DNA from: Streptomyces caeruleatus
GTDB lineage: Bacteria > Actinomycetota > Actinomycetes > Streptomycetales > Streptomycetaceae
Direction: 5' to 3'
Length of the DNA: 64,000 nucleotides
NCBI RefSeq assembly: GCF_001514235.1
Contig: NZ_KQ948930.1
Span: 342,522-406,521 of the forward strand
Part shown: positions 33,362-33,863 of the stretch, piece after piece
How the letters are laid out: each line of letters starts with the position of its first letter
Position numbering within the stretch: position 1 is the first letter of the stretch
Program-made: the position numbers and the translations under genes
Notes under the pieces: model-generated
The model's database searches: none
Told to the model about the DNA's origin: nothing
The model's input: only the letters and a program-made list of their open reading frames with translations

Positions 33362-33390
33362 GGCGACCGGCTCAGTGACCGCTGGTCGCC
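33362..33390. terminator. Hairpin between convergent PBP and sugE genes
   Basis: GGCGACC at 33362-33368 pairs with GGTCGCC at 33384-33390. It overlaps the last codons of the leftward sugE remnant, so it may end the PBP transcript. Confidence 0.4.
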
Positions 33391-33723
33391 TTCAGCCCCA
33401 CGACGGCGACCAGCAGCAGGCAGACGAAGAAGATCCGCGCGGCGGTGACCGGCTCCCCCAGCACCACCATGCCGACCACCGCCGCACCGGCCGCGCCGAT
33501 GCCCACCCACACGCCGTAGGCGGTGCCGATGGGCAGGGACTTCGCGGCGTACGACAGCAGCACCATGCTGGCGACGATGCCGGCGCCGGTGAACACACTG
33601 GGGACGAGGCGGGTGAAACCGTCGGTGTACGGGGGTCTGGGGGTGTCCCCCAGATAAGCACAGCATGCCGACCGACCAGCCGACTTCCAGCAGACCGGCG
33701 ACGACGAGCAGGACCCAGGCCAT
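33372..33723 (-). pseudogene. sugE: SugE/Gdx-type SMR guanidinium exporter, disrupted
   Basis: The 5' part reads MAWVLLVVAGLLEVGWSVGM from ATG 33723 with a good ribosome site (GAGAGG). The 3' part, in another frame, reads PSVFTGAGIVASMVLLSYAA, then SLPIGTAYGVWVGIGAAGAA and VVGMVVLGEP, ending LKATSGH, a perfect SugE end. Between them, where one codon (Lys) is expected, stand 34 nt (about 33630-33663) containing CTGGGGGACACCCCCAG, a 7-bp palindrome. The net +31 shifts the frame, so the 4-helix transporter cannot be made. SugE/Gdx proteins export guanidinium; a guanidine-III-like riboswitch lies upstream. Confidence 0.8.
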
Positions 33724-33757
33724 GACGAGCACCTCTCACAAAGACGGAAACCTGGCG

Positions 33758-33806
33758 GTGCGTCGTCTTTGCCTTCACCCGGTACGGCGCGTCTCGTCGG
33801 GGGCCT
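33758..33806 (-). promoter_or_regulatory. Guanidine-III (mini ykkC-III) riboswitch
   Basis: On the minus strand, 35 nt upstream of sugE, the RNA reads CCCGACGAG, then GCGCCGUACCGGG, then AAAGACGACGC. This matches the guanidine-III aptamer layout from memory (P1 with ACGAG loop, GCGCCGUACC block, AAGACGGCGC 3' strand of the pseudoknot). P1 is preserved with different bases (CCCG/CGGG). The pseudoknot helix has one mismatch (ACGACGC where ACGGCGC is expected). The position in front of a guanidinium exporter gene is the canonical one. Confidence 0.75.
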
Positions 33807-33827
33807 TCAAAGCTAGTAAAGAAACGA

Positions 33828-33863
33828 GGAAGGGGCTGGTGACAAAAGCCACCAGCCCCTTCC
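33828..33863 (-). terminator. Terminator after GroES-like gene
   Basis: Perfect 14-bp stem: GGAAGGGGCTGGTG at 33828-33841 and its complement at 33850-33863, 8-nt loop rich in A. It starts 22 nt past the GroES-like stop and just before the sugE leader, separating the two transcripts. Confidence 0.85.

Follow-up and report, generated by a model that had tools for sequence, protein, structure and literature searches.

The window (the whole 64,000-nucleotide stretch of DNA that was analysed) carries on its minus strand a guanidine-III riboswitch aptamer, which is separated from cpn10 by a probable terminator and followed by a guanidine exporter gene (gdx) of the SMR family that is interrupted by a 33-nt hairpin (Table 1). 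The covariance-model search proposed as a check in the first-pass annotation gave a gathering-level match to the whole Guanidine-III model (positions 1-67, E 6.5e-7), wider than the 33758-33806 given there, and this is the sole such match of the 10.3-Mb genome when the whole assembly is searched. Among 199 Streptomyces genomes, 168 have a match at E <= 0.001, 163 of them above the cut-off. As the match is at gathering level and so many genomes of the genus are matched, it is not due to chance, and the class match confirms the element upstream of the exporter as a genuine guanidine-III riboswitch of the ordinary Streptomyces type. The three motifs quoted in the first-pass annotation (CCCGACGAG, GCGCCGUACC and AAAGACGACGC) are all found in the window sequence. 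Its P1 helix, CCCG/CGGG, is likewise borne out, with four of four pairs between 33801-33798 and 33781-33778, and the one mismatched pair that it had noticed in the pseudoknot is a C·A beside six Watson-Crick pairs.

Table 1. Features of the riboswitch and exporter locus, in window positions
Feature	Position	Strand	Basis
Inverted repeat between cpn10 and aptamer, probable terminator	33830..33861	.	seen in sequence
Guanidine-III riboswitch aptamer	33757..33826	-	Rfam RF01763, 48.1 bits, gathering score 36
Pseudoknot helix P2, 5' strand GCGCCGU	33784..33790	-	sequence and alignment to model
Pseudoknot helix P2, 3' strand ACGACGC, A 33763 opposite C 33787	33760..33766	-	sequence; C·A is the genus form by comparison
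CUCGUC before start codon, predicted partner of GACGAG 33798-33793 without ligand	33724..33729	-	minimum-energy fold, z -1.16; inferred
First 20 codons of guanidine exporter (gdx, SMR), ending in ATG	33664..33723	-	match to intact relatives
33-nt hairpin element in place of AA of TGAAG	33631..33663	-	alignments; model match 33630-33666, 63.8 bits; DNA fold z -3.35
Rest of exporter, other frame	33372..33629	-	PF00893 53.5 bits for 33596-33372; 99% identical to S. muensis over 74 aa

PMC2864571 describes ACGA as perfectly conserved in guanidine-III (ykkC-III) and names emrE-type genes among the targets of the class. The window aptamer contains GACGAG and has an SMR gene downstream, and it is like the class in its above-gathering whole-model score, its ACGA core and its pseudoknot. 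It differs in the C·A pair, the usual form in Streptomyces, and in that the gene it controls is broken.

Alignments to relatives place the 33 nt of the insert where these carry the AA of ATGAAGTAC. After the insert the exporter is out of frame, so the single open frame of a functional Gdx/SMR exporter is not found, and the first-pass annotation was right that the riboswitch is retained upstream of a broken exporter. The Pfam match on the C-terminal part covers profile positions 38-93, and the 31-aa N-terminal piece alone has no Pfam match. The function of such genes, Gdx guanidinium exporters of the SMR family, is taken from PMC12186494. The window gene resembles these exporters in its family match (PF00893) and its riboswitch-controlled place, whereas its frame is broken by the hairpin. 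On the strand of the gene, the shifted frame runs for 330 codons without a stop (33732-32740), across the 3' end of a penicillin-binding-protein gene on the other strand. The closest allele belongs to S. muensis (L034, the same locus as L063), with six differences over 315 nt; among the C-terminal codons four differ silently and none is changed. Because there are only six differences, the break is, judged by divergence, young, and the switch is probably still kept for that reason, with no need for a new role. The window genome has two further SMR genes with full-length matches; guanidine export may have been lost in this strain.

According to PMC12186494, guanidine-III is an ON switch: once the ligand is bound, the pseudoknot forms, the Shine-Dalgarno sequence becomes accessible and the transcript is shielded from RNase E. 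In the minimum-energy fold of the window leader without ligand, GACGAG pairs with CUCGUC just before the start codon at 33723. This predicted OFF pairing would fit the ON-switch mechanism, and we give it as a suggestion because the energy of the leader fold has a z of just -1.16 against shuffles, 25 of 200 of which fold equally well. By analogy with the family literature, guanidine would fold the pseudoknot, which would free the ribosome-binding site and allow the exporter to be made, a translational control that the window switch would now exert on a dead gene.

The C·A pair of the pseudoknot across the genus

The first-pass annotation had taken the pseudoknot mismatch as an early sign of decay. 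Had decay of the aptamer begun after the loss of the transporter, the C·A pair, being non-standard, could be its first sign. Among 104 distinct exporter loci, the exporter is intact in 96, and the aptamer expression matched 94 of these (no match at the other two); C·A is the sole mismatch in all 94. The nearest relative, S. muensis, has an intact exporter and the same C·A as its only pseudoknot mismatch. A wider scan with one expression covered 141 exporter or riboswitch loci, some genomes being represented twice, and gave 138 matches at 137 loci. The exact window strands, that is the C·A form, account for 124 of the 138; four matches have U-A and two C-G at this position, six have a form mismatched elsewhere (GTGCCGU/ACGGCCC) and one looks like a chance match. 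A pattern allowing both letters on either side of the C·A position found matches in 157 of 199 genomes, and among the matches listed there are aptamer-like U-A forms in G135, G113 and G168, C-G forms in G120, G186 and G043, and six that look like chance, all those remaining being C·A.

By these comparisons C·A is the form typical of the genus; found as it is in the matched intact loci, it is uninformative on decay. In four of the five other genomes that carry the insert (see below), the pseudoknot strands are identical to those of the window. The fifth, G262 (L062), has the C·A pair and a second broken pseudoknot pair (ACGACTC), a form seen once among the 138 matches; its aptamer is the sole candidate for real riboswitch decay among these five. 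Although this second mismatch in an inserted genome would suit a decay begun with the loss of the transporter, the identical C·A in every matched intact locus and its predominance in the wider set make it highly improbable that the pair of the window has this origin. What stands of the earlier reading is the switch kept above a broken exporter; the mismatch as a mark of decay does not. The non-standard pair 33763/33787 is itself conserved, being nearly fixed across the genus with the U-A and C-G forms rare, and offers a testable variant of the guanidine-III aptamer.

The insert recurs at one nucleotide on separate branches

A pattern spanning the hairpin and the gene, with three mismatches allowed, was found in 5 of 392 genomes (that of the window, G068, G275, G262 and G369), and a sixth inserted genome, G193, was found by alignment; as the pattern had missed it, the number of inserted genomes is a lower bound, at least 6 of 392. 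In all six the insert stands at the same nucleotide and has nearly the same letters. Its length is 33 nt in the window, G068 and G262, 32 nt in G275, and 34 nt in G369 and G193, and it keeps the frame in G275 and breaks it in the other five. Of 111 exporter rows read in frame (seven of them repeats of a genome, hence the 104 distinct loci), 103 are intact, one is lengthened in frame and seven are broken; the rows having been selected for their resemblance to the window, the proportion of intact genes is no measure of the genus as a whole. The site itself reads TGAAG in 100 of the 103 intact rows. Five of the seven breaks are due to the full insert, one (L129) to a deletion ending at the hairpin, and one (L058) has another cause. 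S. fulvoviolaceus (L129) lacks both the aptamer and the start of the gene, the missing stretch reaching from the cpn10 terminator to the hairpin. The exporter of L058 (G020) is broken without a hairpin, apparently by a one-base length difference relative to its neighbour L053.

It is exceedingly improbable that the insert is an assembly or sequencing artefact: the window assembly is a draft of 63 contigs, and GC-rich hairpins are hard to read, but the same insert is present in six assemblies, in three of which (G068, G193 and G262) the contig with the locus is longer than 10 Mb.

A tree of 100 rows based on four flanking genes, which leaves out L057, L086, L093 and L133 (too few columns) and includes L146 (G369) with 48% of the columns, gives each of the six inserted rows a branch of its own with intact rows as neighbours, corresponding to six changes when L129 is left out of the count. 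Support is 90 for the grouping of G262 with S. bobili and 98 to 100 for the other inserted pairings, and a single clade for five inserted rows (L146 left out) was rejected (p-AU 6.14e-5). When the gene itself was compared with the insert excluded (leaving out L129, L058, L057 and L086), the nearest row to each inserted row was an intact one. The window exporter has its six differences to the intact L034, against 27 to the closest allele with the insert; G369 shows a narrow margin, with 46 differences to the nearest intact versus 52 to the nearest inserted allele. In the window and in G068, the alleles on either side of the insert match those of the host's own sister right up to it. The shared nucleotide and nearly identical letters could also be expected from one old insertion that was inherited or passed around with the gene, and species could have exchanged a segment a few tens of bases long. 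We consider this unlikely in view of the six separate branches, the rejection of a single clade and the intact nearest allele in every case, and the six inserts look like separate insertions as the simplest reading. As five further genomes carry this element at that very nucleotide, in seemingly separate events, recurrent site-specific insertion, and not random decay, would have broken the gene of the window.

The gene would still work if the ribosome shifted frame in the hairpin or bypassed it. The hairpin is strong and contains C runs, the C-terminal part shows only silent differences from S. muensis, and the insert of G275 is in frame, all of which would be compatible with a rescue of this kind. 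However, the three insert lengths give three frames and the insert of G262 opens CTG TGT TGA, an in-frame stop; an insert length or landing position that would bring every copy back into frame, as with byp-like elements, was not found. Residues kept in other inserted copies have been lost in G193 (Y replaced by C after the insert and by H in SYAAK) and in G262 (D replaced by H and Y by Q). Relative to the tree sister, changed and silent codons number 36 and 88 in the inserted pairs, against 29 and 118 in 14 intact control pairs, sums that give a weak hint of relaxation in the inserted exporters. A rescue by the ribosome is thus very unlikely.

The hairpin family, its target sites and its possible movers

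A covariance model of the hairpin (R1) was built from 14 copies, and 150 candidates per genome were scored. In 10 genomes it gave 9 to 32 matches per genome at E <= 0.1 (21 in the window's own genome), those near E 0.1 including chance matches. Within the window, only the exporter copy scores convincingly, the next match having 12.6 bits. The preference of R1 for TG before the hairpin is partly built in, because the model was made with three target letters in front, and the evidence for AAG at the target comes from empty sites only. Such sites were sought for eight other copies, using 30 matched loci and 13 of 16 further stretches; L295-L297, which read as recO arrays, were not used. With gene names read from translations, TGAAG stands at the empty site in relatives for four of the eight copies, in amino-acid-permease-like and DUF1275-like genes (on the non-coding strand), at a hisC-like end and at the end of a macB-like ABC gene. 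Exactly AA is exchanged for the hairpin at the permease-like and DUF1275-like sites, as in the exporter, while the hisC-like copy reads CTA versus CTG in relatives and the macB-like copy has lost one base more. The four sites lacking TGAAG are in a gntT-like gene (ATGATC or ATGCTC), an ABC gene (ATGTAC or hairpin remnants), recO and a poorly aligned gene end. Given the TGAAG rate of 1.8% after TG in the window, the chance of four in eight is about 8e-6, and that of five in nine, when the exporter is included as the discovery locus, about 2.5e-7. Comparison of filled and empty sites revealed no target-site duplication at the exporter, permease-like and DUF1275-like sites, with AA alone lost. 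A second TGAAG at the end of the S. muensis exporter was not seen filled, and so more than these letters must matter.

The hisC-like end is a second recurrent site, filled in the window genome (L184, G000:C4:376969-377004), in L298 (G067) and in L299 (G252), and reading CTGAAG in six of the eight unfilled relatives compared. Several copies have a more elaborate setting. In L190 (G193), L295 (G387), L296 (G314) and L297 (G183) the start of recO is present two or three times, and a hairpin of this family separates the copies; the L295 array consists of 3.6 copies of 128-bp units. In G193, the recO copy joined to the gene body codes for the same 22 residues with six silent differences, which looks as though a replacement start of the gene had arrived in a cassette. 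Family hairpins are also arranged in tandem, at periods of 85 to 147 bp (L202, L203, L207, L211, L212, L213 and L214) or follow a stretch resembling the 3' half of a tRNA (L203, L204, L189, L206 and L199), and in L217 (G068) a murA-like gene piece is found on both sides of the hairpin, the second copy reading through ATGAAG.

A tentative reading, which in our judgement falls a little short of probable, is that Streptomyces harbours an undescribed family of mobile hairpins of about 33 nt that an enzyme places at NTGAAG in exchange for AA and without target duplication, that have hit the exporter in at least six lineages, and whose relatives sit in 85-147-bp tandem cassettes bringing substitute gene ends (recO, tRNA-like). 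If this is true, a single hairpin element would account for much of the guanidine-export loss seen across the genus. At the level of titles and abstract openings, the family was not noticed in the literature, which does not show that it is unpublished.

Among known systems, REP elements with RAYT (Y1) transposases are short dispersed DNA hairpins like the Streptomyces element, and MITEs share with it a small size, the lack of coding capacity and many copies. Rickettsia palindromic elements and mitochondrial byp elements are hairpin-bearing inserts inside coding sequence, as here, and either leave the frame intact and are tolerated or are passed over by the ribosome. The Streptomyces element differs from the last two in that it breaks the frame in five of six genomes, from MITEs in its length of about 33 nt and in the two bases lost and absent target duplication at the exporter, permease and DUF1275-like sites, and from REP elements in lacking a consistent Y1 partner and in entering genes at TGAAG with loss of AA. 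We infer that some agent places the hairpin. A Y1 transposase of the RAYT type moving a REP-like element would be a candidate, as the hairpin is short and dispersed and folds as a single strand, and Y1 genes are present in the window genome, G193 and G369. Against this, a Y1 match was obtained in five of eight genomes tested and in none of the other three, which include the inserted G262; the inserted G068 has only a weak 30-position Y1 piece, and no Y1 gene has a hairpin match of more than 12 bits nearby. In the eight genomes there is no Y1 gene convincingly flanked by the hairpin, and such a transposase is unlikely to be the mover.

Searches of phage, plasmid and viral-contig collections found no near-full-length match to the hairpin: the phage collection gave one record, a Sulfolobus virus, covering 59% of the query, the plasmid collection five records covering 62-70%, and the viral contigs no exact match. 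The best plasmid record, from Calothrix (L302, 26 of 26 letters), and one from Nostoc (L303, 25 of 26 letters) are very similar hairpins between genes, by kinship or by chance, and the Calothrix plasmid has a second, shorter hairpin close by.

In summary, the locus very probably consists of a normal riboswitch above a gdx exporter that was recently broken when a 33-nt hairpin came to replace the AA of TGAAG just after codon 20, shifting the frame, as one instance of a recurrent site-specific insertion, the switch being kept because the break is young. The riboswitch is routine, and the surprise is the recurrent and precise insertion in the exporter. The Streptomyces loci form a natural series, running from intact loci to recently broken ones that still have the switch and on to S. 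fulvoviolaceus, where the switch is gone, and along it riboswitch decay can be timed. That the exporter has repeatedly suffered one and the same break at one base points to a very small site-specific insertion process, the machinery of which could be caught by strain comparison.
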